Below, in pieces: positions 1-18,701 of a stretch of 64,000 bases of DNA. The stretch comes from Mariniphaga sediminis (lineage in GTDB: Bacteria; Bacteroidota; Bacteroidia; Bacteroidales; Prolixibacteraceae), in assembly GCF_003573545.1 (NCBI RefSeq), contig NZ_QWET01000002.1, positions 186,001-250,000 of the forward strand, in the 5' to 3' direction. The translations under genes were made by a program, and so were the position numbers. Under the pieces are notes generated by a model. That model was not told where the DNA came from and did not search any database. It was given only the letters and a program-made list of their open reading frames with translations. The first letter of the stretch is position 1. Each line of letters begins with the position of its first letter.

Positions 1-1
1 G

Positions 2-829: not shown

Positions 830-844
830 CCTGATTATTTCGGG

Positions 845-2008
845 TTATTTTAACGGAGCGGCAAATTTCTGAACGTCTTCGCCGGTAATTTGTTTGTCAC
901 ACAGAATAATCAATCGTTCGATCACGTTCCGGAACTCCCGGATGTTTCCGGTCCAATTTATCTTTTGCAATTCATCTATGGCATCTTTGGCAACCGATTT
1001 TTCGGGCATTCCATATTCACCGCAGATAACGTCCACAAAGTGGTTTGCCAGCAATGGGATGTCTTCCAATCGCTCGTTAAGCGACGGCACATGAATGAGA
1101 ATGACACTCAGCCGGTGGTACAAGTCTTCCCGGAACTGCCCTTTTTCTATTTCTTCAGAAATATTTTTATTGGTGGCCGCTACCACCCGTACGTCAACAT
1201 TGATGTGTTTATCGCCGCCCACCCGAGAAATAACATTTTCCTGAAGTGCGCGCAACACCTTAGCCTGGGCCGAAAGACTCATGTCCCCAATTTCATCAAG
1301 AAAAAGAGTACCTCCGTTTGCCTGTTCAAATTTTCCTTTGCGCTGTTTCACGGCCGAAGTAAACGAACCTTTTTCATGGCCGAACAGTTCGCTTTCAATT
1401 AACTCGGAAGGAATTGCCGCGCAATTCACCTCCACAAACGGCCCGGAAGCTCGTCCACTCTGATCGTGAATACGCCGGGCAACCAGTTCTTTACCTGTTC
1501 CATTGGAGCCGGTAATTAAAACCCGGGCATCGGTAGGCGCCACGCGATCCGCCATTTCTATCACCTTCTTTATGGCCGGAGACTCGCCAATAATTTCAAA
1601 TTTTTTACTGACTTTCTTTTTGAGAATTTTTGTCTCATTTACCAGCGTTGATTTATCCATGGCATTACGGATTGTAATGAGCAGGCGGTTTAAATCGAGC
1701 GGTTTTTCGATAAAATCGTAAGCGCCTTTTTTTATGGACTCCACAGCCGTATCAATATTCCCGTGACCGGAAATCATCACCACCGGTGAATCCACGGCCT
1801 GGGTATTTAACTGCTCCAGCACTTCAATTCCGTCAAGGCCGGGCATCTTAATATCGCAAAGAATAATGTCGTACTCGGTATGTTTTACCATTTCCAGCCC
1901 CTTCTTCCCGTCTTCGGCCAAATCAACCTCATATTTTTCGTATTCCAGAATATCTTTCAGCGTATTACGAATGCTCCGTTCGTCATCGATTACAAGAATT
2001 TTTGACAT
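845..2008 (-). CDS. REC-AAA+ (NtrC-like) response regulator lacking the Fis-type HTH
   Basis: Residues 1-120 form a receiver domain with acidic residues D8-D9 and phospho-acceptor D52 in CDIKMPG. Residues about 140-365 form a sigma-54-activator AAA+ domain: Walker A is GSNGTGKE, Walker B is GGTLFLDEIGD, and the arginine-finger region (REDLYHRLSV) is present. At 387 residues it is some 60 shorter than NtrC or AtoC. It stops just after the AAA+ lid (ITGEDVQKFAAPLK), so there is no C-terminal Fis-type DNA-binding helix-turn-helix. The sigma-54-contacting loop, usually GAFTGA, reads GSFTSA. It may therefore activate from solution, bind DNA through a partner, or have another role. No sensor kinase gene is in view. 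Domain identity is sure; target genes are unknown. Confidence 0.93.
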   Translation of the reverse strand: MSKILVIDDERSIRNTLKDILEYEKYEVDLAEDGKKGLEMVKHTEYDIILCDIKMPGLDGIEVLEQLNTQAVDSPVVMISGHGNIDTAVESIKKGAYDFIEKPLDLNRLLITIRNAMDKSTLVNETKILKKKVSKKFEIIGESPAIKKVIEMADRVAPTDARVLITGSNGTGKELVARRIHDQSGRASGPFVEVNCAAIPSELIESELFGHEKGSFTSAVKQRKGKFEQANGGTLFLDEIGDMSLSAQAKVLRALQENVISRVGGDKHINVDVRVVAATNKNISEEIEKGQFREDLYHRLSVILIHVPSLNERLEDIPLLANHFVDVICGEYGMPEKSVAKDAIDELQKINWTGNIREFRNVIERLIILCDKQITGEDVQKFAAPLK

Positions 2009-2029
2009 AATCAGTTCTTTAATGAGTTA

Positions 2030-2059
2030 CAAAAATAAGTTCCCCGAAACAAATAACAA
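2030..2059 (-). promoter_or_regulatory. Bacteroidota-type promoter of the response regulator gene
   Basis: On the minus strand a TTG (2059-2057), a 19-base spacer and TATTTTTG (2037-2030) fit the Bacteroides pattern of a -33 TTTG and a -7 TAnnTTTG. Transcription would start near 2023, giving a leader of about 15 bases before the ATG at 2008. Confidence 0.5.
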
Positions 2060-2117
2060 CAGGAAAAGGGCAAATAAAAAAATTGACTAAAGAAAAAATC
2101 AAATCACGAAAGGGAAC

Positions 2118-3047
2118 TCAATGCACGTCGACATCGTTCACCATTCGTATCGAATGATTGAGTGTTGGTATAATTTCAGTAAGGTATTCGTTTACAGCCT
2201 TTACGCTTCCGGGCAGCACATAAATCAATGATTTCCCTTTTACGCCTGCGATACTTCTGCTCAAAAGTGCATTCGGTTTTACAGACCCGTATTTGTAACG
2301 AATCAGCTCCATAATGCCCGGAATTTCTTTGTCAAGCAACCTCTTTACCACATCCGGGGTAATGTCCCTGCTGCCAATTCCTGTTCCACCGGTAGTTACA
2401 ATAATATCCGCCTCATTTTCCACCGCCCGGTTCAGTTCATTTTCCAGCATTGTCTCATCGTCCGGAATTAAGATTTGCTCCACAGTCACCGGCCGGTTAG
2501 CTTCCCCGAAAAAATCGTTAAGCATTTTGGTAACATAAGGGCCGCTTTTGTCTTCATAAATCCCTTTGTACGCCCTGTCGCTCAACGTGATTACCGCAAT
2601 CTTTATTTGCCTGGGAATGTACTGTAAAACATCGTTTACCCGGAGTTCCCCGGGTTGAATCACCCGGCAAAATATTCCTTCAACCGGCATAATACAATTC
2701 CCGGAAATCTTCATTATTTCACAGCCTTTGTGGCATTTTTTACCAATCTGCGTCACTTCCAGAATAACATTTCCCGCCTGAAACCGGTCGAGGATATTGG
2801 CTTTATAAAGCTCAAGCCCCTCGGTTGTTATATTTTCGCCAAAGTCGCCGTACTGAAACGTACGGTTATTTTGTTCCTCTGCTTTTTTTAAACTTTCAGT
2901 GCCCAGCAAACTGACCTGCCGGTGCCAGTGCCCTGCATGAGCATCATCCTTCACCCCGGTTTCTGTAATTTCAACCGAACCGACCGGTGTTTTTACGGTG
3001 CCCTTCTTTTCTGAAAGATTGAGAGATTTTATGGTTACCTGAATCAT
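2118..3047 (-). CDS. MOSC domain fused to MogA/MoaB-type molybdopterin adenylyltransferase
   Basis: Residues 1-145 are a MOSC domain, with GVKDDAHAG at 31-39, FGENITTEGL at 69-78 and cysteines at 105, 109, 118 and 127. Residues about 148-305 are a MogA/MoaB-like domain with AVITLSDRA at 151-159 and the nucleotide-binding TTGGTGIGSRD at 218-228. MogA-type proteins adenylylate molybdopterin before metal insertion by MoeA; MOSC domains occur in enzymes that bind or sulfurate the molybdenum cofactor. The fusion would join an early cofactor step to a handling step in the cytoplasm. It is the last gene of the cofactor block and overlaps moaC by 4 bp (ATGA). The domain calls are strong; the combined role is inferred. 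Confidence 0.9.
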   Translation of the reverse strand: MIQVTIKSLNLSEKKGTVKTPVGSVEITETGVKDDAHAGHWHRQVSLLGTESLKKAEEQNNRTFQYGDFGENITTEGLELYKANILDRFQAGNVILEVTQIGKKCHKGCEIMKISGNCIMPVEGIFCRVIQPGELRVNDVLQYIPRQIKIAVITLSDRAYKGIYEDKSGPYVTKMLNDFFGEANRPVTVEQILIPDDETMLENELNRAVENEADIIVTTGGTGIGSRDITPDVVKRLLDKEIPGIMELIRYKYGSVKPNALLSRSIAGVKGKSLIYVLPGSVKAVNEYLTEIIPTLNHSIRMVNDVDVH

Positions 3048-3493
3048 TTTTTATGCTTCTCCAGAAGTTTAATTTCACTCATTACCATCTGTTTATCCAC
3101 GGCCTTACACATATCATAAATGGTCAGTAACGCCACATTCACTGCGGTTAAAGCCTCCATTTCCACCCCTGTTTTCCCGGTACACTTTGCTATTGCCGTT
3201 GTTCTGATACCATCATCCTCCATTTCAAAATCAACTGAGACTTTGGATAGCGGTACCTGGTGGCACAACGGGATGAGGGTAAACGTATTTTTTGCCGCCT
3301 GAATTCCGGCTATCCGGGCAACAGCACAGATATCTCCCTTTTCAATGGAACCGGCCTTAATCAATTTCAGCGTTTGAGGCTGTAAAAATATTTTTCCTGA
3401 GGCTCTGGCCATCCTCTTCTGGTCAGGCTTTTCCCCAACATCTACCATGCTGGCCTCGCCTTTTTCATTTAAATGTGAAAATGTATCTGCCAT
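3044..3493 (-). CDS. moaC: Cyclic pyranopterin monophosphate synthase MoaC
   Basis: This 149-residue protein has normal MoaC length. It carries MVDV at 16-19, LIPLCHQVPL at 73-82, GVEMEALTAV at 109-118 and the active-site stretch YDMCKAVDK at 126-134. MoaC converts the MoaA product (3',8-cyclo-GTP) to cyclic pyranopterin monophosphate in the cytoplasm. The gene lies 11 bp after the moaA stop and overlaps the MOSC-MogA gene by 4 bp, so translation of the three is probably coupled. Confidence 0.96.
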   Translation of the reverse strand: MADTFSHLNEKGEASMVDVGEKPDQKRMARASGKIFLQPQTLKLIKAGSIEKGDICAVARIAGIQAAKNTFTLIPLCHQVPLSKVSVDFEMEDDGIRTTAIAKCTGKTGVEMEALTAVNVALLTIYDMCKAVDKQMVMSEIKLLEKHKK

Positions 3494-3504
3494 TTTATGT
3501 TTTA

Positions 3505-4305
3505 TTATCCGCCTATATTATAAAAACTACTTTTGCTATTCAATACACCTTTTTTGGGTTTTGCATTCAATGCCAGCAGAAACGCCTCCTTAATTCCATG
3601 TTCTTTAATACTGAACTCTTTATTGCTAAAAAGGCAGGGTTTTATCATTCCGTTTGCCGTGAGCCGCAAGCGGTTACAGACAACACAGTTTCCTCCGTCG
3701 CCCCCTTCCACTTGCGAAAATTCACCCGTCCGCAAGTCCATTTGCGTAATAAACCTTAACTGAAGGCCTTCTTCGGCAGCAAATTTTTTTATCTGCTCCG
3801 TCTGCTGATTGTCGCCGTTACTGAGCTTTACCATATTTAATTTGACAGGGGTCAGTCCGGCCTTTTTCGCTGCCTGAATCCCGGCAAATACATCTTCCAG
3901 CTCACCGCCGCGGGTTATTTCTTTATACTGCCCGGGAGACACCGAATCAAGACTGATGTTGACCCGTCTCAAACCGGCTTTTTTCAATTCCCCGGCAAAC
4001 CGGGACAGCAACACACCGTTGGTTGTCATGGTTATTTCCTCAATCCCTTCAATCCGGTTCATCCGTTCCACCAATTCCACAATTCCCTTTCGAACCAAGG
4101 GTTCACCTCCGGTTAAACGCACTTTTTTAATCCCCAGTTCTGCCCCAACCTTAACCACGTCGGTAATCTCCTCCAAACTCAGCAATTCATCCCGTTTGAG
4201 CAAGTCTATCCCCCCTTCGGGCATGCAATAAATGCAGCGAAGGTTACATCTGTCAGTTACAGATATCCTCAGGTAAGTAATATTTCGGTTATATCGATCG
4301 AACAT
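3505..4305 (-). CDS. moaA: Compact GTP 3',8-cyclase MoaA (radical SAM)
   Basis: The 266-residue protein has the radical SAM cluster C20-x3-C24-x2-C27, TGGEP at 65-69 and a second cluster site C207-x2-C210-x13-C224 inside CVVCNRLRLTANG. It ends in Gly-Gly (265-266), the tail that enters the active site of known MoaA enzymes. The family is normally about 325-330 residues. The shortage lies mainly between LRFITQMD (183-190) and C207, where about 48 residues seen in E. coli MoaA are absent and a short VEGGDGGN stretch stands instead. The frame is open throughout, so this looks like a compact subtype, not a frameshift. The 3' end of moeA overlaps its start by 17 bp. Confidence 0.88.
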   Translation of the reverse strand: MFDRYNRNITYLRISVTDRCNLRCIYCMPEGGIDLLKRDELLSLEEITDVVKVGAELGIKKVRLTGGEPLVRKGIVELVERMNRIEGIEEITMTTNGVLLSRFAGELKKAGLRRVNISLDSVSPGQYKEITRGGELEDVFAGIQAAKKAGLTPVKLNMVKLSNGDNQQTEQIKKFAAEEGLQLRFITQMDLRTGEFSQVEGGDGGNCVVCNRLRLTANGMIKPCLFSNKEFSIKEHGIKEAFLLALNAKPKKGVLNSKSSFYNIGG

Positions 4306-5464
4306 TTACCCGTTCCCCTTTTTTTATTGCGTTAACACCTTTGGGCACTTCCAGCAAGTGGGTAGCCCCGCTCAATGCATTGATATGCGCCGAACCATGA
4401 AATTCAACCGGAATAATTTCCATTTCAGCCCCAATATTTACAGGCACAAAATCCATCCGGTCCGATTTTTTCCGGTTCATTTCTTTCCCCAGCGGCAATG
4501 TTAAAATTTCAGTTTGAAACCTGTGCCCCATTAGGGCAAATAAAAATGGTTTTACATACAATTCAAACTGCACAAAAGAGGACACCGGATTCCCTGACAA
4601 TCCGAAACAATAATTGCCTCCTTTCCGGGCAAAAATCATGGGTTTCCCCGGTTTTATGGCCGTGGTTGTAACAAGAATATCAAACCCCTGCTTTGTTAGC
4701 ACATCGGGAATCAGGTCGAAATCCCCCACCGAAACACCACCGGTAAGAATAACCACCCTGCTGTTATTCAATGCCTCTGAAATCTTCTCCAAAAGAACAG
4801 GCTCATCATCCTGAATAATCCCGCCATAACCGGCCTGAATTTTCATTTCAGCCAGTTGGGCAAGCAGTTGCGACGAATTGGAATTCCGGATTTGAAAAGA
4901 GCGTGGTTTTGCATCGGGTTCAACCAATTCGGTTCCGGTGGCAAAAACAGCTACGTCGGGTCGTCCAAAAACCAAAGGACGGGCCACTCCTGCGCCAGCC
5001 AGCACCGGTAAATGCCTCGCTGAAATCAAGGTTGATTTCGCCAGCACCTTCTCCCCCTTTTTGATATCTTCGCCCTGGTAACAAATATTATTGCCGGTAG
5101 ACTGGTTTTTACAAATAACCTTACCCGGCGCAACCCATGCTGCATCTTCTTTTTTAAAGACACAGTCGGCACTCTCAGGAACCACTGCACCTGTCATAAT
5201 TTTGTAACACTGGTTTTTCAACAGGGCTTTTTCCGGCAGCTTACCGGCGAATAGGGTTTCAACCACTTCAAGTTCATTGCTCAAGTCGGCTCTTCGGCAG
5301 GCAAAACCGTCCATAGCCGATTTGTTAAACGGCGGCATATCCATATCGTGAAAAACATCCTCCGCCAAAACCCGTTTAAGCGCATGTTGTAAATCAACCT
5401 TTTCTGCCGGCATCTCTTTCGCTGTTGAAAGAATACGCTCCAGCGCCGTTTTATATTCAAGCAT
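4289..5464 (-). CDS. moeA: Molybdopterin molybdotransferase MoeA
   Basis: MoeA inserts molybdate into adenylylated molybdopterin in the cytoplasm. The protein shows MPPFNKSAMDGFA near residue 45, the MogA-like motif TGGVSVGDFD, KPGKPM and GLSGNPVSS, all standard for MoeA, and the 391-residue length is usual. I place the start at MLEYKTALERIL (5464), not at the Met 20 codons upstream, because family members begin there and the extension would run well into the mobB-like gene; with this start the overlap is only 8 bp. It overlaps moaA by 17 bp at its 3' end. Confidence 0.94.
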   Translation of the reverse strand: MLEYKTALERILSTAKEMPAEKVDLQHALKRVLAEDVFHDMDMPPFNKSAMDGFACRRADLSNELEVVETLFAGKLPEKALLKNQCYKIMTGAVVPESADCVFKKEDAAWVAPGKVICKNQSTGNNICYQGEDIKKGEKVLAKSTLISARHLPVLAGAGVARPLVFGRPDVAVFATGTELVEPDAKPRSFQIRNSNSSQLLAQLAEMKIQAGYGGIIQDDEPVLLEKISEALNNSRVVILTGGVSVGDFDLIPDVLTKQGFDILVTTTAIKPGKPMIFARKGGNYCFGLSGNPVSSFVQFELYVKPFLFALMGHRFQTEILTLPLGKEMNRKKSDRMDFVPVNIGAEMEIIPVEFHGSAHINALSGATHLLEVPKGVNAIKKGERVNVRSI

Positions 5465-5984
5465 CGATAGTAAATTTTCCGTTATTAAAATGAACCTTCT
5501 TCCAGTCAAAATTCTGCGCCTCACCGGAAGACAAACGAATCACCGTTGAATGAGGCCTGATATTACTTTCCTTTTTTAGTTCCTCCCCCTCAATGTACAC
5601 CAGCAGGCCTGGCTCCCAAAAATCATACAACCCTCCTGACTCAATCACCACAGGATTTATGGAATTTATCTGTTGTAAAACCATTTCCACCGCCTGCGGC
5701 AAATAGTCATTTTTAGCCTGAATGTAAAATACTTTCTTTGCACCTGCCTGCAACATTCTTGAACTGTCTTTCCCATTAATATTCCGCTCTTCCACAATTA
5801 CAAAATCGGGTGAGAAATGAATAAATTTCTGTTTCTCATCTAAACGATGAAAATGCGGAGAAATTTTGATTCCGACAGGAGCATGACTTTCAGCCAATTG
5901 CCGGATAATCTGGCAGGCAGAAACAGTTTTGCCCACATTCCGGCCACTCCCCTTCACAATCAATATGTTTGGCATGTATTTCAT
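5457..5984 (-). CDS. MobB-like P-loop protein of molybdopterin-guanine dinucleotide synthesis
   Basis: A 175-residue P-loop protein with GSGRNVGKT near the N-terminus and hydrophobic strands ending in DFVIVEE and PVVIESGG, as expected of the MobB/GTP-binding fold. MobB is an accessory factor for attaching GMP to molybdopterin, helping MobA. Position between mobA (4-bp overlap) and moeA (8-bp overlap) supports the call. Sequence outside the P-loop is divergent, so a related metal-cofactor GTPase remains possible. The exact start (MKYMPNIL or MPNIL) is uncertain by three residues. Confidence 0.72.
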   Translation of the reverse strand: MKYMPNILIVKGSGRNVGKTVSACQIIRQLAESHAPVGIKISPHFHRLDEKQKFIHFSPDFVIVEERNINGKDSSRMLQAGAKKVFYIQAKNDYLPQAVEMVLQQINSINPVVIESGGLYDFWEPGLLVYIEGEELKKESNIRPHSTVIRLSSGEAQNFDWKKVHFNNGKFTIDA

Positions 5985-6523
5985 TTCACATCCTCCGGAT
6001 AATTAACATTCAAAAGCGCCTCGTCCTCTAAAACCATTACCGTTTTGGCGCCAAGTTTTTCCAGCAGGCTTTGTAGTTTATAGTCTTTTTTTTCTATTTG
6101 GGCGCGGATGACAGGAAGCGCTGATTTATTATAGTATCCCAAAACCGGGAAAATTTTGCCATCGCCACGGGCAACAACCACAGCATGGTTATCCCCTTTT
6201 TTATGAAGAATTTTTTTAAAAAGACCGGCGTGAATACCAGGCATATCGCACGGACAAACAATATTGTCAGAAGTTTTTGAACGGGAAAGCGCAGCTTCCA
6301 GTCCGCCAATAGGACCTAAGCCTTCATAATTATCCCGAACCGTTTCGTATCCTAAAACATCGTATTCCGAATTATTCGCGCTTATCAAAATACCCGAAGC
6401 TATTTTTGAGCAGGCGTCTATGGCATTCTCGACGAATCGTTTTCCACGATAAATCATCAGTCCTTTATCCTGCCCCATGCGTGAGCTTTTTCCGCCCGCC
6501 AGTATGATTGCTGTCAGTTCCAT
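5981..6523 (-). CDS. mobA: Molybdenum cofactor guanylyltransferase MobA
   Basis: MobA transfers GMP from GTP to the molybdenum cofactor, giving the MGD form used by DMSO-reductase-family enzymes such as the PsrA-type reductase at the head of this block. The nucleotide-binding signature LAGGKSSRMGQDKG opens the protein, CDMP is the metal-binding motif and NVNYPED the typical C-terminal block. I start at MELTAIILAGG (6523); ten upstream codons in frame would overlap the permease gene and lack similarity. About 180 residues, normal for the family. Confidence 0.92.
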   Translation of the reverse strand: MELTAIILAGGKSSRMGQDKGLMIYRGKRFVENAIDACSKIASGILISANNSEYDVLGYETVRDNYEGLGPIGGLEAALSRSKTSDNIVCPCDMPGIHAGLFKKILHKKGDNHAVVVARGDGKIFPVLGYYNKSALPVIRAQIEKKDYKLQSLLEKLGAKTVMVLEDEALLNVNYPEDVK

Positions 6524-6524
6524 T

Positions 6525-7256
6525 TCAAAAATAAAAAAGTTTAAAACTGGCAAAAAGCAACACAGCGGCCAGCAAATAGGTTAATTTCAGGGAAGTCAGC
6601 CGGGCCCTTCCCATGTGGGAGCCAATTAAACTTCCGCCTATACCGAGCGCAATCAGGATATAAATTTCAGCTACCGGGTTCATTCCGCCGCGCGAAACCA
6701 AACCTGCTATTCCGCTGGCAGAATTCAAAAAAATAAAAATGGCTGAAACAGCTGCCGTCTCTTTTATGGTGGCCCAACGGAGTAACAAAAGAATGGGGCT
6801 CAGGATTATCCCGCCGCCAATTCCTATCAACCCCGAAAAGAACCCGAGGAAAGCTCCAATGGCCAGCGCAACCGGAATGTTTATCGGTTTTGTATCTACC
6901 GGCTTCCTCGCTGCAAACAACATGCGGGTAATGGCAATCAACAAAAAGATTCCCAGAATTATTTTATAGGTGGAAGGATTGATTTGGAGCCGGGCTCCCA
7001 AAAATGACATGGGAACAGAAAGCACAATAAACGGAAGGAGCAATTTTAACCTGAAAAACCCTCCTCTGTAATAAGAATAAAAAGAAATACCGGCCACAAA
7101 CAGGTTAAGAATTAAGGCCGAAGCGCGCATGTTTTCGGGAGAAACAGCAAAAATAGCCATAATGGCAAGGTACCCGCTGGCACCACCATGCCCAACGGAT
7201 GAGTACAATATGGCCGTTACAAAAATTAGCGCATAAAAAACAATTCCATACTCCAT
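6525..7256 (-). CDS. TauE/SafE (TSUP) family permease
   Basis: This 243-residue hydrophobic protein has about eight predicted membrane segments and the paired motifs SSVGHGGASGYLA near the N-terminus and GLIGIGGGIILSPIL in the second half, typical of TSUP permeases (TauE/SafE, sulfite or sulfoacetate export; some carry sulfur intermediates). It follows the sulfur-reductase genes and directly precedes mobA. Upstream is AGGAG (7270-7266), nine bases before the ATG, a strong ribosome site that is unusual here and could pair with the upstream leader. Substrate is not evident; a sulfur oxyanion is inferred from context. Confidence 0.85.
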   Translation of the reverse strand: MEYGIVFYALIFVTAILYSSVGHGGASGYLAIMAIFAVSPENMRASALILNLFVAGISFYSYYRGGFFRLKLLLPFIVLSVPMSFLGARLQINPSTYKIILGIFLLIAITRMLFAARKPVDTKPINIPVALAIGAFLGFFSGLIGIGGGIILSPILLLLRWATIKETAAVSAIFIFLNSASGIAGLVSRGGMNPVAEIYILIALGIGGSLIGSHMGRARLTSLKLTYLLAAVLLFASFKLFYF

Positions 7257-7405
7257 TTGGCTTTTCTCCTTTCCAATTCATTCAAAAATACTTCGAACTC
7301 GGGAGGATACGCTGTTTCCAGCCTATCCCGTCGGTTTATCATCCCTGCCTGAGTTTAGGACTGACAAACTCGGAGAACACAATCAACAAAAATATCAGAT
7401 GTTAC
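7257..7405 (-). promoter_or_regulatory. Structured leader with alternative hairpins before the TauE/mob genes
   Basis: The 149 bases between the rhodanese-fold gene and the permease gene form a dense set of inverted repeats on the minus strand. GAGUUU (7371-7366) can pair with AAACUC (7356-7351), but AACUC (within 7355-7351) can instead pair with GAGUU (7300-7296). A stem GGAUA/UAUCC (7328-7324 with 7309-7305) encloses GCUG-GAAA-CAGC, a GNRA-type tetraloop. UUCUCC (7377-7372) is the exact complement of GGAGAA (7269-7264), which contains the Shine-Dalgarno. This suggests a cis-acting RNA that can hide or expose the permease start. I could not match it to a known riboswitch class. Confidence 0.45.
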
Positions 7406-8029
7406 TTAACATCCACCCTGAACGCCTTTTTTTCTTTCCTTTTTTTGAACAGACGGCTTCGGAGCACTCGGCGCTTCAAGGGGCTGGGCCGTATCGACCG
7501 CTTTTCCACCCAATGCCATTCCTGCTCCCGTGCGTAGGTTATATTTTAAAAACTCTTCGTTGGGACTGGCGCTTTCAGGCGCTTCCGGATTCATAACCGT
7601 CTCTACCCAATAGTTTAATCCTCCCTGTAAAACGTAGTTATTTTTATAGCCCAGCTGGCGGGTAATCATCCAGGCTTCGTTGGCAGCATTTGTTCCGTTT
7701 GAATAAAACACATTCAACTTAACATCCTGATTGACATACCCTTCCCATTCAGGATTTAAAATATCAACCAGCGGAATGTTCATCGCATTGGGAAGCCTGA
7801 ACTGGTCATACTCCGCAGCGCTTCGCACATCAATCAGTTGCAAAGAAGGATCTTTTGAAATGATCATATCGGCCACTTGATCCGGCCCGATAAACTGGGT
7901 CCCGCTTTTTACCTCCTCAAGCAACTGGCCGGCTGTTAATTTATACGGTTTCGTCGTATTTTCCGGCACAGCAGCAATTATCAATCCCAAAGGGATCAAT
8001 ACAGATGCTAATATTATTCTTGCTTTCAT
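7406..8029 (-). CDS. Exported rhodanese-fold protein without catalytic Cys, ending in GGC
   Basis: Residues 1-20 (from MKARIILAS) form a signal peptide, so the protein is probably periplasmic. A rhodanese-like domain covers about 44-145, with LIDVRSAAEYDQFRLPNAMNIP typical of the fold (split here as LIDVRS at 65-70 and the following strand). The active-site loop, normally C-x-x-G-x-R/S, reads S110-N-G-T-N, so the persulfide-forming Cys is absent. A basic, proline-containing tail (about 185-203) leads to the last residues Q-G-G-C; C207 is the only cysteine in the protein. This recalls the terminal Cys arm of sulfur carriers such as SoxY. The start at 8029 is chosen because the signal peptide begins there. 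Confidence 0.85.
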   Translation of the reverse strand: MKARIILASVLIPLGLIIAAVPENTTKPYKLTAGQLLEEVKSGTQFIGPDQVADMIISKDPSLQLIDVRSAAEYDQFRLPNAMNIPLVDILNPEWEGYVNQDVKLNVFYSNGTNAANEAWMITRQLGYKNNYVLQGGLNYWVETVMNPEAPESASPNEEFLKYNLRTGAGMALGGKAVDTAQPLEAPSAPKPSVQKKERKKGVQGGC

Positions 8030-8084
8030 TTTGCTAATTTTTGGTTTTAAACGAATATTCAAAACATAAAAACAGTTGAGCCAA

Positions 8085-8687
8085 TTATTGGTTCAGTGTA
8101 TAATCGTCGCGGGCAAATCTTCTCTCAGCCCACTCGCCAACCCAAAACATTCCAAGAGCAACCAGAATCACAAGTAATGTCAGCAATCCGCGGGAAGCTC
8201 CCAGCATATCGCTCAAAAGAGGCGCGCCAAGAAATTTGGCATAATAAAAATTCTCCCAAAGTGGATATCCTTCGGCAAAAATAAAAATGCCGATAAACAT
8301 TCCGCCAATAAAAGCCAGGGCATCAATCTTTCCGATGGAGGCTGCACAAAAGGATGTACCGGGGCAGTAGCCGCCAAGAATAAAACCGGCCCCCATAATG
8401 ACTCCGCCCCCAAGGGTGGACCAAAGATAGGTTGGGTTAATATAAATGTAGCTTAAATCTATCCAGTGAAAAAGGCTCATAAAGAGTAGTCCGACCGCCC
8501 CCACAAGGGCCGCAGTAAAGAATACTTTTAACACGGTGGTATCGTAACCATAAAACATTCCGGCCAGCCTGCGACTGGAGGAAAATCCGTTGGACTCGAG
8601 TACAAAACCAAACCCGATTCCGATAATAAATGCCAAAAATAAATTGGTATTTTCTGAAATTATTCCGTTTACAATTAGTGGTCCCAT
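8085..8687 (-). CDS. YeeE/YedE-type sulfur transport half-protein (second subunit)
   Basis: About 200 residues with five predicted membrane segments. GFVLESNGFSSSRRLAGMFYG near the start and GGYCPGTSFCAAS in the middle are marks of YeeE/YedE (TsuA-like) proteins, in which conserved membrane cysteines pass thiosulfate or related sulfur species. The classic form is one polypeptide of about 350-400 residues; here it is split with the next upstream gene. The start at MGPLIVNGI (8687) is preferred over a Met 26 codons upstream, whose extension is not hydrophobic in the family way and overlaps the other half gene. Confidence 0.85.
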   Translation of the reverse strand: MGPLIVNGIISENTNLFLAFIIGIGFGFVLESNGFSSSRRLAGMFYGYDTTVLKVFFTAALVGAVGLLFMSLFHWIDLSYIYINPTYLWSTLGGGVIMGAGFILGGYCPGTSFCAASIGKIDALAFIGGMFIGIFIFAEGYPLWENFYYAKFLGAPLLSDMLGASRGLLTLLVILVALGMFWVGEWAERRFARDDYTLNQ

Positions 8688-8727
8688 TTTTATGATTTTT
8701 GAATGAGTAAATGCAACAATGTGTGAA

Positions 8728-9246
8728 TTAAATCCATAATTTCCGGGCAAAGTAAGCCAGGGCAAAAGCGGTTCCGAAAATAGCCGCCATCGACAAAAAG
8801 CCGCTTACCGAAAGCACCGCCATGCCGGTAAGGGCAGAGCCACTGGTACAACCACGCCCCAACTGCGATCCAAAACCAAAGAATACACCGCCAATAACCG
8901 CAAATATTATCCTGGTTTTGTTGGTAATTTTCGGCGATTTTTCCACCTTAAATTTTAGGCGGCCGGCAATGGCCCCGGAAACAAAACCTCCTACCACCAG
9001 CCCCAGCATTTCAAAAACAAGCCACTGACTTAGCGGATTTGGATGAGACTCCAGGTAATCGCTGTAAAAAGCTGAATTTCCAGCGTGTGCTGGAGCAACC
9101 GTATTCATTCCTGCAACAAGGGCGCTTTTTGCCGCACCACTTGCCCCCAGGCCTCTTCCGGAAACCCAGAAAGCCACAATCAAAACAAGCCCTAACAGTA
9201 CTCCCCCGAGATAAGGGTTCATGTATTTTTTCTGTTTCATAATCAT
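8728..9246 (-). CDS. YeeE/YedE-type sulfur transport half-protein (first subunit)
   Basis: A 172-residue membrane protein with four to five hydrophobic segments and the motif GFGSQLGRGCTSGSALTG, the Cys-containing signature of the YeeE/YedE family. Together with the adjacent 8085-8687 product it would make a full two-domain sulfur transporter in the cytoplasmic membrane. A hydrophilic stretch (SAFYSDYLESHPNPLSQ) between the first two segments is probably on one membrane face. Start codons at 9246, 9240 and 9222 are all possible. It follows the NrfD-type gene by 48 bp in the same direction. Confidence 0.85.
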   Translation of the reverse strand: MIMKQKKYMNPYLGGVLLGLVLIVAFWVSGRGLGASGAAKSALVAGMNTVAPAHAGNSAFYSDYLESHPNPLSQWLVFEMLGLVVGGFVSGAIAGRLKFKVEKSPKITNKTRIIFAVIGGVFFGFGSQLGRGCTSGSALTGMAVLSVSGFLSMAAIFGTAFALAYFARKLWI

Positions 9247-9294
9247 GATATCTTTTATAAAAACTTATTTATTTTCTACTAAACACTATTCAAG

Positions 9295-10236
9295 CTAATA
9301 AAGCCAGCGGCTCATTTGTCCGGCATAGGCAATGACAAACCGGAGCATTAAGCTGCCAAAGAGCACCAAAATCACCGGAATTATCACCGGAATATGAAAC
9401 TTTTTGAGTTCCAGAAATTCAAGAACTGCTGGCAAAATCATCCCGATTATCACTACAAAAATCCAGAAAGGAGCGGTGTAAGGTCCGCCTAAAAACAAAT
9501 TGGCTGCGTCGATCTGAACTTCTGTACTTGCCAAAAATCCCATAAACATGTGAACGATTAGAAAGAGCTCAATACCAATAAGCATGATATCGATTTTGGC
9601 AAAATTGATACGCTCCCTTTTTCTTCTTGAAAAAAGAATGATAACGGCCGACCCTGCAGAAAGCCCCGAAACAAGAAACAACGGTCCTAAAATGGATGTA
9701 TTCCACAGTGGCCGGGCATTAAATGCGGAGAATAAAATACCGGTGTAAATTCCAAGAATAACTGAAAAATATAAAATGATCCAGGCCAGGATTTTTTTAT
9801 ACTTCACCAGGAATTTCTCCAACTCTTTCAGCAGGGTCCATTTCCAGTCCCAATTAGGAAAAAATTCCCTGATATGAATGGCAACCCAGGCAAAAGAAAG
9901 CGGTGTAATAGCCATTAAAGTCCAGGCTCCCCATGACATGGGTGACTGTATTTTAATGGTGGTGTACAACTGCCAGAAGTAAAGCTTGTGCCGCAAGTCG
10001 AGAAACAAAGCAGCCAGTCCGATTATCAGCAAAAACGGCACAATTACAGGAGCCCGGCGAACAGCTCCGATGTACTTATTCTCTTTCCCCAAAACCGTAT
10101 AAAGGCTGGCAAAAAAGAGGATGCCGGCAGCCAACCCACCCAAAAAAAGATACAGCGGAATATGCCAGTGCCAAATCTCCAGATGGGGATCTATATTCGG
10201 ATTTAATCTTCCTGATGTTATAATTTCTTCTCTCAT
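9295..10236 (-). CDS. NrfD/PsrC-type membrane quinol subunit
   Basis: This 313-residue protein has about eight predicted membrane helices and the NrfD-family opening EIWHWHIPLYLFLGGLAAG, seen in PsrC, PhsC and TtrC-type anchors. Such subunits exchange electrons between menaquinone and the iron-sulfur subunit and anchor the reductase in the membrane. It lies 11 bp after the ferredoxin gene, in the standard A-B-C order of polysulfide/thiosulfate-reductase operons. Confidence 0.93.
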   Translation of the reverse strand: MREEIITSGRLNPNIDPHLEIWHWHIPLYLFLGGLAAGILFFASLYTVLGKENKYIGAVRRAPVIVPFLLIIGLAALFLDLRHKLYFWQLYTTIKIQSPMSWGAWTLMAITPLSFAWVAIHIREFFPNWDWKWTLLKELEKFLVKYKKILAWIILYFSVILGIYTGILFSAFNARPLWNTSILGPLFLVSGLSAGSAVIILFSRRKRERINFAKIDIMLIGIELFLIVHMFMGFLASTEVQIDAANLFLGGPYTAPFWIFVVIIGMILPAVLEFLELKKFHIPVIIPVILVLFGSLMLRFVIAYAGQMSRWLY

Positions 10237-10247
10237 ATTCTTTGGTT

Positions 10248-10781
10248 TTAAATCAGGTAATACACATGAGGTTTTGTTCCTGCTTCAGGAATCAAGGTTT
10301 TATGTTTTCTCTTTTTCAGCACGTTTGAAACATCACTGTTCGGGTCGTCCAGGTCGCCGAAGTACATACATTTTGTCGGACAAACCTCCACACAGGCGGG
10401 CTGCTGCCCCTTCTTAATCCGATGCAGGCAAAAGGTACATTTATCCACATATCCTTCCGGATGTGAATACCGCGCATCGTAAGGACAACTTACGATACAT
10501 GCCCCGCAACCAATACATTTATTGTGTGTGACCGTTACAATTCCCCCGGCTTCGTAATGACTGGCCCCGGTGGGACAGCACCTGACACAGGGAGCATTAT
10601 CGCAGTGGTTACACCTTTCGGAACGGATTTCGGTTTCAAGCTGCGGATAGGTTCCATCAGTAATTTCCACGATCCAGTCGCGGCAATACCCAATCGGAAC
10701 ATCGTTTTCGGTCTGACAGGCAACCACACAATCCGAACAACCTACACACTTTTTGGTATCGATGGCCATTGCATATCTCAT
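10248..10781 (-). CDS. Four-cluster 4Fe-4S ferredoxin subunit (PsrB/PhsB-like)
   Basis: A 177-residue protein with four Cys groups of the DmsB/PsrB kind: C12-x2-C15-x2-C18-x3-C22, then CNHCDNAPCVRCC, CIGCGACIVSC and CTFC with later Cys in ACVEVCPTKC. It would carry electrons between the NrfD-type subunit and the catalytic molybdopterin subunit. It overlaps the catalytic gene by 4 bp, so the two are translationally coupled. No signal peptide is seen; in this family it is usually co-exported with the Tat-bearing subunit. Confidence 0.95.
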   Translation of the reverse strand: MRYAMAIDTKKCVGCSDCVVACQTENDVPIGYCRDWIVEITDGTYPQLETEIRSERCNHCDNAPCVRCCPTGASHYEAGGIVTVTHNKCIGCGACIVSCPYDARYSHPEGYVDKCTFCLHRIKKGQQPACVEVCPTKCMYFGDLDDPNSDVSNVLKKRKHKTLIPEAGTKPHVYYLI

Positions 10782-13015
10782 GACTTCACCTCGCTTTCTT
10801 TTTCAAACCTGAATGTGACAAAATTTCCTCTCATACCGGTACCCCCCATAACCGGATCCATTAAAACCCGGGTAATTAGTTGGGAATCACTCACTCCTTT
10901 CCCGTATGCGCGGCTCAGCTTTTTATCGGCATGGCCAAACCCGTGGACTATATATACGGAATCGAACCGGATGCGCTCCGTTACGCGCACTTTTACCTGA
11001 AAGTCAGAAACAACACCGTCCTGGTTTTGTAAATAAACAGGCTCCCCGTTTTTAATTCCCCACTCTTTGGCTACTTTAGGATTCACCCAAACGGTGTTTT
11101 CATCCATCAAATCCGTAAGGTTGGGATTATTTGCAGTGCGACTAAAAGTATGCATTGGCGCCCTTCCGTAATTTAAGTGGTAATAACCAGCAGGAGGTTC
11201 TGTGTGAGGAGTGTAAACCGGAAACGGGTCGAACCCTTCAGCTTCAAAAGCAGTGGAATACAACTCAATTTTACCTGTATTGGTATAAAAATCAACATCT
11301 TCCCCTTCCTCGAAAAATAAATTACCATATTCCCGTGGCAAATTCTTTACCCCAAGCCGCTTCATCTCTTCCAGCGAAGAACCTACCTGTTTCAACTGCC
11401 AGTCGAGTTTTTCCTCAAAAGTATCCCAGCCAAAATATTCCTCAAGGCCCAATCTTTTGGAAACTTCTTTGGCCATCCAGTAAGCCGGTTTGGAATTGTA
11501 TTTCGGCTCTGTTGCCGGCATTCTGAGTGCAATGCTGGGATTCCGCCCCTGGGCCACTCTCAAATCATCCCACCTTTCAAGGTAGGTACATTCGGGAAGA
11601 ACCACATCGGCATAGCCTGTAATTTCCATCGGCATTGTATCGACCACGACCAAAAGGTCCAGGTTATTGATGGCGTCAATTGTTTTTTTCTGATCGGGCA
11701 GGGTCATAATCAGGTTGGTACCGTTAACAATCCACCCTTTAATGTTGCAATCCAGTTCCGGTGAAGGAATCGTTGCATCGCAAACCCCTGAAGCGAGGGC
11801 CAAATCAGCCAGCTTGTATTTTCCACCCATAGCCTCCCGCCATGTGCGGGAAGGTTTTGGGAATGGAGGGTGCGGATATGCAGGTAATCCCATTTTATCG
11901 GGAATATAAAAACCACCTCTTCGTCCCCACGACCCGAGCAACGCATTTAATATGGCAACGGCCCTCAAACGCTGGGTGTCGTCTCCATACCAGGTTACAT
12001 GCCTCCCGGGGTGGATAATTACTGAAGGAGCTGCGTTAGCCATTTCACGGGCTGTTTCTCTGATCTGATCGGGTTTGATAGTTGTAATTCCGTAGGCCCA
12101 TTCCGGCGTAAACGGCTGTACATAATTTTTCAGCTCTTCAAAACCGTAAGTATATTGTTCCACATATTTTTTATCGTACCACTCGTTGTTGATGATTTCT
12201 CTGATCCAGGAAAGCAGAAGCGCAATATCTGTTGCCGGCTTTATGGGCAGCCAGAACTTCGATTTACTGGCCGCTGTTGAATATCGCGGGTCCACAGTAA
12301 TAATGGAAGCGCCGTTATCAATGGCATCCGACATCTCCTGCACCTGCCCGTTGTGCATGTTTTCCCCCAGGTGCGAACCAATTAACACAAGGCATCTTGT
12401 ATCGCGAATGTCGAGTGGTTCGGGTGAATTCAGACCATCGCCAAAAGTTGCAATAAATGCTACTTCCCGCGGGCCACGACACTGAGAATAGGATGGAGCG
12501 GCAATATTCCCCGAGCCAAATGCTTTTAACAAATCACCCCAGTAATGACCGCCGGAACCATGCGTAAATAATGCGGTACACTCCGGGCCATGTTCTTTTT
12601 TAATTTTTTGAAGCTTTTCTGCAATAAAATCAAAAGCCTCGTCCCAGGAAACTTCTTTAAACGTTTGCTTTCCGTCCTTCCCGGTAACACGTATCAGGGG
12701 AGTTTTCAGCCTGTCTTCATCGTAATACATTCCTACGCCGCCAGTTCCGCGTGGACAAAGCCGGCCGTTACAATTCGGGTCATCATCATTCCCCGTAATT
12801 TTTTTAATCTTTCCCTCTTCATTTTTATGTACCCAACCGGCACATTGCCAAAAACAGACTTCGCAATAGGTCGGCGTACGCAGCGGATCGCTGCTTCCTC
12901 CTATTCCTTCCTGTCTGAGAGCTTTCACGGCTGAATGGACATATTGGCCTCCAAAAATAAGGCCTGCTGCACTTAATGAAGTAATCCTTATAAAATCACG
13001 TCTTGAAGCTGACAT
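10778..13015 (-). CDS. Tat-exported molybdopterin oxidoreductase, PsrA/PhsA-like catalytic subunit
   Basis: The 745-residue protein begins with a Tat signal (SRRDFIR at 4-10, then a hydrophobic run to about 22). A 4Fe-4S site is formed by C51, C54, C58 and C87. C179 in PSYSQCRGPRE is the probable molybdenum ligand, as in polysulfide and thiosulfate reductases, and a C-terminal molydopterin dinucleotide-binding domain follows from about residue 620. With the next two genes it forms a membrane-bound respiratory reductase acting outside the cytoplasm. Polysulfide, thiosulfate and tetrathionate are all possible; the sulfur-handling neighbours favour a sulfur compound. Arsenate or nitrate use is less likely from context but not excluded by sequence. 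Confidence 0.92.
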   Translation of the reverse strand: MSASRRDFIRITSLSAAGLIFGGQYVHSAVKALRQEGIGGSSDPLRTPTYCEVCFWQCAGWVHKNEEGKIKKITGNDDDPNCNGRLCPRGTGGVGMYYDEDRLKTPLIRVTGKDGKQTFKEVSWDEAFDFIAEKLQKIKKEHGPECTALFTHGSGGHYWGDLLKAFGSGNIAAPSYSQCRGPREVAFIATFGDGLNSPEPLDIRDTRCLVLIGSHLGENMHNGQVQEMSDAIDNGASIITVDPRYSTAASKSKFWLPIKPATDIALLLSWIREIINNEWYDKKYVEQYTYGFEELKNYVQPFTPEWAYGITTIKPDQIRETAREMANAAPSVIIHPGRHVTWYGDDTQRLRAVAILNALLGSWGRRGGFYIPDKMGLPAYPHPPFPKPSRTWREAMGGKYKLADLALASGVCDATIPSPELDCNIKGWIVNGTNLIMTLPDQKKTIDAINNLDLLVVVDTMPMEITGYADVVLPECTYLERWDDLRVAQGRNPSIALRMPATEPKYNSKPAYWMAKEVSKRLGLEEYFGWDTFEEKLDWQLKQVGSSLEEMKRLGVKNLPREYGNLFFEEGEDVDFYTNTGKIELYSTAFEAEGFDPFPVYTPHTEPPAGYYHLNYGRAPMHTFSRTANNPNLTDLMDENTVWVNPKVAKEWGIKNGEPVYLQNQDGVVSDFQVKVRVTERIRFDSVYIVHGFGHADKKLSRAYGKGVSDSQLITRVLMDPVMGGTGMRGNFVTFRFEKESEVKS

Positions 13016-13053
13016 ATATTACTTATTTTTAAACAAATCGAACAATTCTCATA

Positions 13054-13083
13054 CAAAATTATCCAAATATCTATATATACAAA
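13054..13083 (-). promoter_or_regulatory. Probable promoter of the sulfur-reductase/molybdenum-cofactor block
   Basis: On the minus strand TTTG (13083-13080), an 18-base spacer and TAATTTTG (13061-13054) fit the -33/-7 pattern. The transcript would start near 13047, about 32 bases before the ATG at 13015. A second TAnnTTTG match (13087-13080) overlaps the -33 box. Confidence 0.45.
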
Positions 13084-13378
13084 TATAAAAAAGTAAACAT
13101 AGGAAGTACACCAGCCAAAAACGCGCACAAACGACTCATTAACAATAACATAAAACAATATGTTTTACGGCATTCTTTCGTTATATATATTGATTCTAAA
13201 GAAGAAAAAATCAGACTTTTAGGTATGAATTAAGACGACAATAAAAGAACAAAAGACAATAATATATGAATAAACATTTCAAAAAAAAAGAATCATTAGT
13301 GTCCGGTTAAAAGATAATTTTATTGTGTTGGTGATATTATTTACACTAAACAACTTAATTATAGTACTATAATAATTG

Positions 13379-13474
13379 GACTAAAGCCCGTTTACCGGAT
13401 CTCCTATCTATTACCCCCGGCTTTAAAGCCGGGGCTATGCATGCATACCCAATAAAAACGGGGGCTTTAGCCCG
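13379..13474. repeat. REP-like nested palindromic element
   Basis: A perfect 20-base palindrome, ccccggctttaaagccgggg (13415-13434), sits between arms ctaaagccc (13381-13389) and gggctttag (13462-13470). The two units share the core ggcttta/taaagcc. This GC-rich island inside AT-rich DNA is what an extragenic palindrome (REP/RAYT-type) looks like. No transposase gene is next to it and I see no second copy in the window. Confidence 0.65.
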
Positions 13475-13510
13475 ATTATCATTTTTCCCCCGGACAGTAA
13501 TGAAAAAGAA

Positions 13511-13541
13511 TAAAAAAAGCTTCCCTGAAAAAGGAAGCTTT
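13511..13541 (-). terminator. Rho-independent terminator after the beta-barrel gene
   Basis: Arms aaagcttcc (13516-13524) and ggaagcttt (13533-13541) pair perfectly around an 8-base loop. On the minus strand the stem is followed by a T-run (TTTTTTTATT), 63 bp after the stop of the gene ending at 13604. Confidence 0.85.
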
Positions 13542-13603
13542 CTTTAACAATCAAAGGCAAAACAAGAATTAAATTCTTCCTTGCCCTGAAGGTTTCAACG
13601 GGT

Positions 13604-14236
13604 TTAAAATCTTATTCCGGCATAAACCTGAATAACGGTATTGCGGGCATCGCCAATTATTTCTTCTGCCGGCCTGTTCTCTTTTGCCACTCTGGTTAAC
13701 CCTACATTATAATTAAACCCCAGCAAAAAAGGGTCTAAATTAAATCCCAATCCGGCTGATAAACCCATATCAAACGGCCTGAAATTCGCACGATCCAGTT
13801 CTCCATCAGAATCAATATCGAAAAAATCCATCACTTCGGCGTCTGTTTTAACTTTTGCTTTTAAAAGGTAACTGACATACGGTCCGAATTGAAATTCAAA
13901 GTCGGGTGACAGATTATACACCAGTTTAACCGGGAGGTCAATATAACGCAGGTTGAACTTTGCTTCTCCATCCGCAAAAACAACGTTATCAAAATTATAT
14001 TTAAACCCTTTTACCGAATAAAGTAATTCGGGTTGAATAGCAAAAGACTCAGAGATGCTGATTTTATCAAACACCCCCACATGAAAACCGAGTTTCAGGT
14101 TTTCATCGTTATTCCCGCTGACAGTCATATTCGAAAAATTAAGACCCCCTTTGGCGCCAAAATCCGAATTTTGAGCAGACAAATTCGATACAAATAATAT
14201 CCCTCCTATCAATACAGCAACTAATATCTTTTTCAT
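13604..14236 (-). CDS. Outer-membrane beta-barrel protein (PorT-like porin family)
   Basis: The 210-residue product has a signal peptide (about 1-21, ending LSAQ) and then FGAKGGLNFSNM, a frequent opening of the Bacteroidota outer-membrane beta-barrel family (PF13568). Alternating strands such as FAIQPELLYSVKGFKYNF and YIDLPVKLVYNLSPDF fit an eight-strand barrel, and the C-terminus AGIRF ends in Phe as outer-membrane proteins often do. Function is unknown; these often serve as small structural or binding barrels. It lies 34 bp downstream of the OmpA-family gene and may be co-transcribed; the terminator at 13511-13541 closes the unit. Confidence 0.85.
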   Translation of the reverse strand: MKKILVAVLIGGILFVSNLSAQNSDFGAKGGLNFSNMTVSGNNDENLKLGFHVGVFDKISISESFAIQPELLYSVKGFKYNFDNVVFADGEAKFNLRYIDLPVKLVYNLSPDFEFQFGPYVSYLLKAKVKTDAEVMDFFDIDSDGELDRANFRPFDMGLSAGLGFNLDPFLLGFNYNVGLTRVAKENRPAEEIIGDARNTVIQVYAGIRF

Positions 14237-14270
14237 AATAAATTACTTACAAGTTTAAATCTCGGTTATT

Positions 14271-14951: not shown

Positions 14952-14984
14952 TTCTACATCATTTAAAAGTTTTCTCTTTATCAT

Positions 14985-18675: not shown

Positions 18676-18701
18676 GACAAAACAGTAAAATAATAATAAA
18701 G

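Follow-up and report, generated by a model that had tools for sequence, protein, structure and literature searches.

A rhodanese-fold protein with its only cysteine at the end of a C-terminal arm is a candidate sulfur carrier for YedE-type transporters

The window, i.e., the whole stretch of 64,000 nucleotides of Mariniphaga sediminis DNA analyzed here, encodes a rhodanese-fold protein that lacks the reactive cysteine of the active-site loop and carries a single cysteine at the C-terminal end of a flexible, lysine-rich arm. From conservation and gene neighborhood we consider it fairly probable that this protein is a swinging-arm sulfane-sulfur carrier for YedE at the outer face of the cytoplasmic membrane. 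A sequence-only reading of the gene had proposed a periplasmic sulfur carrier, and this is also our best reading of the terminal-cysteine rhodanese. Coordinates of the gene and its operon are given in Table 1.

Table 1. Features of the putative carrier gene and of the surrounding operon, in window positions.
Feature	Position	Strand	Evidence
Rhodanese-fold (dead-rhodanese) gene of the putative carrier	7406..8029	minus	207 aa, stop TAA; translation; Pfam PF00581 E 2.3e-14
Rhodanese-fold domain, residues 49-143	7601..7885	minus	Pfam; Foldseek against PDB gives rhodanese domains
Ser110 codon (Cys in active rhodanese)	7700..7702	minus	no Cys there in 149/151 relatives
Terminal Gly205-Gly206-Cys207 codons	7409..7417	minus	invariant in 67/67 aligned relatives; Cys last or penultimate in 149/151
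Flexible Lys-rich C-terminal arm, about residues 173-207	7409..7513	minus	AlphaFold2 block means; K/R in 92 tails
N-terminal hydrophobic helix, residues 3-20, putative export signal or anchor	7970..8023	minus	model helix 3-20; alignment to fused relatives
YedE N-terminal half, PmpB-like, 200 aa from ATG	8085..8687	minus	PF04143 positions 11-160; conserved Cys108, Cys114
YedE C-terminal half, PmpA-like	8728..9246	minus	PF04143 positions 174-309; Cys133
NrfD/PsrC-type membrane subunit	9295..10236	minus	PF03916 E 3.2e-47
4Fe-4S electron-transfer subunit	10248..10781	minus	PF13247 E 1.3e-23
Molybdopterin catalytic subunit, Psr/Phs type, twin-arginine-like start	10778..13015	minus	PhsA best NCBIfam match; N-terminus SRRDFI
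TauE/SafE-family membrane protein, downstream of the carrier gene	6525..7256	minus	PF01925 E 5e-31

The reading frame is intact and conserved in relatives, which rules out a pseudogene, and translation of the plus strand across 7406–8029 gave a frame full of stops. The product ends in SAPKPSVQKKERKKGVQGGC directly before TAA, its tail end reads KKERKKGVQGGC, and Cys207 is the sole cysteine of the protein. Rhodanese is the single Pfam domain found (54.1 bits compared with a curated cut-off of 22.2); PF00581 stood alone at E ≤0.001, i.e., no SoxY domain was detected. Ordinary rhodanese domains were also the nearest solved folds when the model was compared with the PDB in Foldseek. The active-site loop is FYSNGTNAANEAW, with Ser110 at the catalytic cysteine position. 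In an AlphaFold2 model based on 67 relatives, pLDDT averaged 82.5; blocks within residues 41–170 had means of 87–96 and those within residues 171–207 means of 47–64, and the tail is probably disordered. Two statements of the sequence-only reading were hence borne out, namely the serine in place of the persulfide-forming cysteine and the lone terminal cysteine on a flexible, lysine-rich tail. The helix of residues 3–20 has no lipobox cysteine and aligns with an extra hydrophobic helix that connects YedE half and rhodanese domain in fused relatives; the protein is most likely exported or membrane-anchored at the outer face. A second rhodanese domain of this genome, the only further one to pass the cut-off, has a normal cysteine loop, YCTGG.

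Relatives were gathered by similarity to the window protein. Among 60 relatives, 42 matched it, the weaker matches being largely ordinary rhodaneses. From GTDB contigs we obtained 46 loci of Prolixibacteraceae, other Bacteroidota and Neomarinimicrobiota, with one of the six underlying patterns located in the tail, and 72 of 395 further genomes of the phylum contained a match at E 1e-12 or better. We set aside six rhodaneses (open frames of 285–363 aa, at least 25 bits), which left 151 distinct family proteins. None of the six has a terminal cysteine and five have no YedE half nearby; the two examined at the loop both carry a cysteine there, and one of the six has two Pfam rhodanese stretches. 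We judged them to be a different family; when they are added back, the terminal-cysteine count becomes 149/157.

Within the 151 proteins, the last or next-to-last residue is cysteine in 149. Position 110 is occupied by serine in 92, alanine in 31, glycine in 23 and tyrosine, histidine or aspartate in one each; the two proteins with cysteine (L174, L177) keep the tail as well. No cysteine at all is present at positions 108–116 in 147/151, and from profile start to end the tail cysteine is the only one in 110/151. Clustering, with rows of fewer than 60 aligned domain residues left out, gave the same picture, i.e., 53 of 55 clusters at 50% identity and 26 of 27 at 40% identity had the tail cysteine, and none at either level had Cys110. 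Already in a first alignment of 84 proteins, the active position was without cysteine throughout. An alignment of 67 relatives that share 25–84% identity with the window protein (of 78 sequences, 11 were excluded as second tandem copies or fragments) retained only nine invariant columns, three of which are G205, G206 and C207. In 92 tails anchored on the cysteine, drawn from 94 clusters at 70% identity, position −2 was glycine in 99%, and position −3 was glycine in 80%, glutamate in 13% and methionine in 4%. Lysine or arginine made up a fraction of 0.34–0.61 at positions −6 to −12, and no residue reached 0.4 further upstream within the last 30.

The terminal cysteine is therefore near-universal, and Ser110 is variable; of the two residues whose conservation the sequence-only reading had proposed to check, only the cysteine is thus kept. 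The description as a non-catalytic rhodanese fits, and the view that the active site was exchanged rather than decayed is strongly supported by the retained tail, the rarity of Cys110 and the apparent selenocysteine-for-cysteine replacement described below. Neither loss or free variation of the terminal cysteine nor a restored Cys110 was found as a rule among homologues.

Both exceptions without tail cysteine are short second paralogs (L020:2125-2556, L022:873-1346) beside a GGCE-ended carrier; they contain no cysteine at all, stop with TAA, and may be scaffold partners. In three other loci, the second tandem copy is Cys-tailed and has one or two cysteines shifted within the old loop (L017:252-914, DECGACGPW; L021:740-1414, QADACGPW; L018:785-1465, HSEACAPV), where a second reactive site is possible. 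In the window's own genome, a census of GGC directly before a stop, excluding GGCS and GGCE and dropping rows with TGG as last triplet, yielded 63 occurrences compared with 49 for the reversed control pattern. The window gene was the one GGC-ended open frame above 100 aa in this census, which rules out a genome-wide C-terminal sorting tag.

Because the original profile included the tail, we rebuilt a domain-only profile from residues 44–150 of 43 members and searched the same 395 genomes, 106 of which matched at E 1e-10. The top 57 places, with E values up to 2.3e-16, were all known members, each with cysteine last or next to last; below this value, members and ordinary rhodaneses were mixed. 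From 20 weaker loci (every locus not yet examined down to E 2.9e-12, plus three beyond it) we obtained 23 proteins. None of them ends in cysteine, and 21 have a loop cysteine, which stands either in the aligned column or directly before it. Apart from L257, no tailless branch of the family appeared among the places examined, with most places at E above 2.9e-12 lying outside this set, where tailless members could hide. L257 (genome G353, outside the 151) stops after 140 residues without a tail and shows a KKKKREGC end in the next frame; it looks like a frame-shifted family member. L256 was rejected as a member. It is a two-part rhodanese-like protein and the nearest outgroup without loop cysteine; it has serine in the loop, and a check for a hidden TGA found none, since it ends in ESGG followed by TAA.

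Among 199 genomes of Neomarinimicrobiota, the phylum of L065, 39 matched at 46 places. The first 30 loci, 18 of which were already in the set of 151, all have Ser110 and a terminal cysteine (28 GGC, 2 GSC). Nine further loci contributed 10 proteins, some of them repeats; seven end in GGC or GGCS and three in GGG before a TGA. Of the 46 places, six were outside the examined set, two in a near copy of an examined contig and four at E 6e-13 or weaker, where tailless members could hide. The carrier–YedE system spans two phyla, one of which is Neomarinimicrobiota.

On the minus strand, the window operon runs MopA – FeS – NrfD – YedE C-half – YedE N-half – rhodanese – TauE – molybdenum-cofactor genes. 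The sequence-only reading had placed the gene between transporters and reductase; this was incorrect, as the YedE halves lie between the reductase genes and the rhodanese. Molybdenum catalytic, FeS and NrfD subunits occur together as in Psr/Phs/Sre reductases. For the catalytic subunit, the best NCBIfam match is PhsA with 478.4 bits, under the cut-off of 694, and Psr, Phs and Sre are not separable by sequence (PMC8359478). In 40 of the 46 loci, the available sequence extends beyond the carrier on its upstream side by about 4.4 kb or more, and 39 of these 40 show MopA, FeS, NrfD and both YedE halves; L047 has the YedE halves only. The order MopA-FeS-NrfD-YedE-carrier is also found in genomes of other classes, and seven of the 46 loci encode a tandem pair of Cys-tailed rhodaneses. 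L046, a locus from a named strain of Sunxiuqinia elliptica, likewise contains the operon.

For 146/151 proteins, we found a YedE N-half either fused to the carrier or encoded on the same strand at a distance of at most 6 kb. Three of the five carriers without it start at a contig end, and the other two are the tandem pair of genome G355. G355 has the molybdenum operon and two GGC rhodaneses, yet no PF04143 match in the genome, so YedE is not always the acceptor. Among the 60 relatives, the YedE N-half was matched in 38 and NrfD in 27. One chain contains both YedE half and carrier in 39 of 157 distinct proteins, and the fusion runs through one extra hydrophobic helix. Adjacency and fusion to a sulfur transporter suggest that the carrier hands sulfur to YedE.

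Cysteines of the transporter halves are conserved, i.e., Cys133 of the C-half in 70/70 relatives and, in the N-half, Cys108 in 67/67 and Cys114 in 56/67 distinct relatives. Cys133 aligns to Cys293 of TsuA/YeeE (8j4c, E 6.6e-6; residue number counted by hand). The match of the N-half profile to TsuA was weak (E 0.44), and Cys108 is no more than a candidate equivalent of Cys91. Foldseek with a model of the YedE-rhodanese fusion found rhodanese folds and no YeeE structure among the 50 matches listed. Cys293 is the first of three conserved cysteines in TsuA, and Cys22 adjoins the cysteine of YeeD (PMC11073785), which supplies the fourth cysteine from the cytoplasmic side of YeeE (PMC11073785). In the two-chain systems, PmpA and PmpB are the halves that hold the equivalents of Cys293 and Cys91 (PMC11582611). 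Direct transfer from cysteine to cysteine in such pores has been doubted, with the cysteines about 7 Å apart (PMC11582611). Sulfur import is described as poorly understood, and passage from the SoxY cysteine along those of SoxT as conceivable (PMC11582611).

As redox partner, the carrier has either a molybdoenzyme of the Psr/Phs type or a cytochrome from the octaheme tetrathionate-reductase family; in some loci neither is adjacent. A single chain of about 400 aa comprises rhodanese and YedE N-half in G002, G004, G006, G010, G011 and G031 and, among genomes of other classes, in G381 and G385. Upstream of these eight fusions lie a cytochrome of 522–556 aa with 17–19 cysteines (8 haem motifs in the two that were counted) and a smaller membrane protein. 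The pair scanned, that of G002, consists of an octaheme cytochrome (TIGR04315, 565.9 bits compared with a cut-off of 375) and a b561-type cytochrome. The molybdenum and octaheme partners are not homologous to each other. In L135 and L136, YedE and the carrier stand without an adjacent Mo/NrfD or octaheme gene. YedE is the most constant partner of the carrier; the redox enzyme varies. The sulfur-reductase setting noted earlier holds insofar as the Mo/FeS/NrfD operon is present, and the emphasis on Psr needs to be shifted.

In L132 and L141, an octaheme operon with a YedE-rhodanese fusion is located at the place of the molybdenum-reductase operon of the window (window 1–18700). Judged from unaligned sequence ends, the same NtrC-like regulator flanks both on one side, and L141 has also the same large protein (window 15328–18675) on the other. 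Here, the YedE-carrier module seems to have remained in place through a replacement of the respiratory enzyme. Next to the molybdenum operon, several genomes encode large multihaem proteins whose N-terminal domain is cytochrome b-like (L134:1894-4599, L138:1-2034, L206:1337-4126), in L134 together with a Rieske protein (L134 and L206 were scanned, L138 was assigned by sequence only). In other-class genomes, MerR-type regulators with 9 cysteines are found just upstream of both operon types (L206:4339-4782, L207:13897-14364, L211:11602-12075); they are possible sulfane-sulfur sensors.

The two kinds of sulfur redox enzyme found as partners could also mean that the arm ferries no sulfur and is a redox tool, which acts either at the respiratory enzyme, by breaking S–S bonds in polysulfide, thiosulfate or tetrathionate, or on YedE, by keeping its pore cysteines reduced. 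G355, with carrier and reductase in the absence of YedE, agrees with this, and so does the tail replacement described in the next paragraph, as selenocysteine usually stands in for a redox-active cysteine. The thiol is however a lone one in most relatives, and adjacency to a YedE half was observed more often than adjacency to either reductase, with many flanks too short to show a reductase. We regard the redox tool as unlikely and retain the sulfur carrier as the preferred reading.

In genomes G548, G503 and G523, the fused protein (L299, L300 and L301, respectively) ends in KKA[S/T]GGG, followed by TGA, a GGC glycine codon and a stop. The in-frame TGA sits where relatives carry the terminal cysteine in all three. 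With the G503 protein as query, the other two were 62–63% identical, and 3/245 genomes of Neomarinimicrobiota match this subtype at E 1e-15. Downstream of each TGA we found a hairpin with a spacing of 18 nt, a 6-bp stem and a 3-nt loop with G first; between L299/L300 and L301, three of the six pairs are changed on both sides, i.e., compensated. The bacterial SECIS model asks for a 3–9 nt loop with an early G, a 4–16 bp stem, 16–37 nt spacing and a minimum free energy of at most −7.5 (PMC13188914). All three hairpins agree with this geometry; their energies are −8.7, −8.7 and −6.8, the last of which falls short of the model limit. tRNA-Sec scored 72.8, 72.7 and 72.0 bits in G548, G503 and G523, respectively (gathering score 47), in each case with a TCA anticodon according to ARAGORN. 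Apparently, TGA is translated as selenocysteine in these three relatives.

An ordinary stop codon in a clade that has lost the cysteine and ends in GGG is the competing interpretation, and we consider it quite improbable. Several results are compatible with it. Whole-stretch energies (−11.3, −11.8 and −9.6) were unexceptional against shuffles (z between −0.8 and −1.2), and the third stretch has a minimum-energy fold other than the hairpin. Among 268 other long TGA-ended frames, recounted without the three TGA-type genes themselves, a relaxed bSECIS-like hairpin at ≤−6.5 kcal/mol followed 13, and one of any energy 74. tRNA-Sec exceeded the gathering score in 22/22 tested Neomarinimicrobiota genomes, chosen among the 39 with a match, in 5/14 controls and not in G000; it permits selenocysteine without singling out the three, because all 22 tested genomes of the phylum carry it, and is weak evidence alone. 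Against an ordinary stop stand the near-universal cysteine site of the TGA with glycine and a stop after it, the equal hairpin spacing and loop with double-sided pair changes, and the suitable tRNA in all three genomes. Given the apparent exchange of cysteine for selenocysteine at the TGA, the tail thiol is probably chemically active rather than an anchor. Selenocysteine in the window gene itself was ruled out, since it stops with TAA and the best tRNA-Sec score in its genome is 45 compared with 47.

The TGA-type operon of G503 comprises an ArsR regulator, an octaheme cytochrome (558.1 bits), a haem protein ending in a b561-type cytochrome, a YedE half and the fusion. G523, where only the fusion was scanned, has genes of the same sizes, haem counts and order. 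The haem protein of G503 (L315:9932-12592) combines 7 haem motifs with a C-terminal b561-type cytochrome (PhsC-like, 147.3 bits compared with 204), which replaces the separate cytochrome b; L316:5355-8018 has the same size and haem count.

We propose the following mechanism for the carrier. The N-terminal helix would export or anchor the protein, and the rhodanese fold would form no persulfide in its own pocket and serve as scaffold and docking body. The lysine-rich arm of about 35 residues would end in a reactive thiol (GGC) or, in one clade, in an apparent selenol (GGGUG). This group could take up a sulfane-sulfur species in the periplasm, for which polysulfide, thiosulfate and a persulfide in the vicinity of the Psr/Phs-type or octaheme enzyme are the candidates. 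With the rhodanese body docked, the arm would then pass the sulfur to the first, outer pore cysteine of the adjacent YedE half-transporter pair. The carrier would correspond, on the outside, to YeeD, which partners YeeE in the cytoplasm. Sulfur loading of the thiol, the cargo and an inward direction are all presumed here, with import favored over export because of what is known of YeeE and SoxT.

Carrier and YedE might instead feed a sulfane-sulfur signal to a cytoplasmic thiol repressor, with no role in nutrition or respiration. SoxT1B, which is signal-transducing, sets a precedent (PMC11582611). The ArsR-type regulator heading the G503 operon (NF033788, 79.9 bits compared with 55; TsoR and BigR below cut-off) and the 9-Cys MerR-type regulators of L206, L207 and L211 would suit such a role. 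Among the ORFs listed for the window, part of which were scanned, no such regulator adjoins the operon, and the NtrC-like response regulator lies beyond the molybdenum-cofactor genes; we hold signaling, too, to be quite improbable. That the terminal cysteine is a structural or attachment feature, i.e., a lipid anchor, cross-link, metal ligand or sorting tag, is highly improbable: lysine-rich tails with a terminal cysteine do resemble anchoring tails, but the GGC end is no genome-wide tag, a second anchor would be needless in proteins that have an N-terminal helix and are in many cases fused to the transporter, and exchange for TGA/selenocysteine is unexpected at an attachment site.

The family profile finds PDB entry 1qxn at E 6.8e-6; it is titled sulfide dehydrogenase, and we take it to be the Sud polysulfide-sulfur transferase of Wolinella. 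Sud is an exported single rhodanese domain tied to polysulfide reductase that uses the cysteine of the rhodanese loop. It shares with the carrier the single exported domain and the polysulfide-reductase-type setting, whereas the carrier thiol is C-terminal and its most constant neighbor is YedE. SoxYZ is a periplasmic carrier with a reactive cysteine flanked by glycines at the C-terminus, GGCGG (PMC6067878). The cysteine on a Gly-flanked C-terminal arm is common to SoxY and the carrier, with thiol reactivity putative in the latter; in contrast to SoxY, the carrier has by Pfam the rhodanese fold only, and its cysteine is last or next to last. The YedE halves of the window fit the family of YeeE/YeeD (TsuA/TsuB) and PmpAB, with Cys133 corresponding to Cys293. 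YeeD is cytoplasmic, whereas the carrier is rhodanese-like, lies most likely on the outer side and is fused to a YedE half in the 39 one-chain proteins.

The Psr operon of Desulfurivibrio encodes an exported three-rhodanese sulfur-transferase, predicted to be a lipoprotein (PMC12142623). It is likewise an exported rhodanese in a Psr operon, but it differs in its three domains and lipoprotein nature, and the excerpted account mentions no terminal-cysteine arm (PMC12142623). Rhodanese-type selenoproteins have been described in forms 1–5, TsoB included, with the motifs UxxS, UxxG, CxU, UxxG and UxxxxU, and a YeeE/YedE selenoprotein with GUxSG and an octaheme selenoprotein are tabulated as well (PMC13188914). 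Rhodanese domain and selenocysteine are shared with the TGA-type proteins, but none of the motifs in the excerpted source has a C-terminal GGGUG arm (PMC13188914). We file the carrier as a rhodanese-fold subfamily of its own, a variant of the carrier-arm type, because the defining features of SoxY and Sud are both lacking, i.e., there is no SoxY domain and no Sud-type loop cysteine. The open-licence literature searched yielded no description of a rhodanese with a GGC tail, of a fusion between YedE and rhodanese or of a rhodanese with C-terminal selenocysteine.

A broader proposal, for which we see an even balance, is that these proteins form a family of shuttles for sulfur, or selenium-assisted sulfur, that face outward and whose reactive chalcogen has moved from the pocket to a mobile C-terminal arm wired to the YedE pore, often in one polypeptide. 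They would be the missing outside donor for importers of the YeeE/YedE/PmpAB type, serve two unrelated sulfur respiratory systems and include a new kind of selenoprotein with penultimate selenocysteine (GGGUG). The carrier is a candidate donor on the outside route of sulfane sulfur to YeeE/YedE-type transporters, and the 39 one-chain carrier-transporter proteins make the handover testable with one purified complex and one point mutation. The family also illustrates clearly how a catalytic residue can be relocated within a fold, with the old site abandoned and an apparent cysteine-to-selenocysteine exchange at the new one. For Neomarinimicrobiota, sulfur metabolism has been debated from psr-like genes (PMC8359478). 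Only close relatives (L002, L003, L031–L034) have a TauE/SafE relative after the carrier, and the window protein of this family is perhaps a sulfite exporter for a thiosulfate-reducing system.
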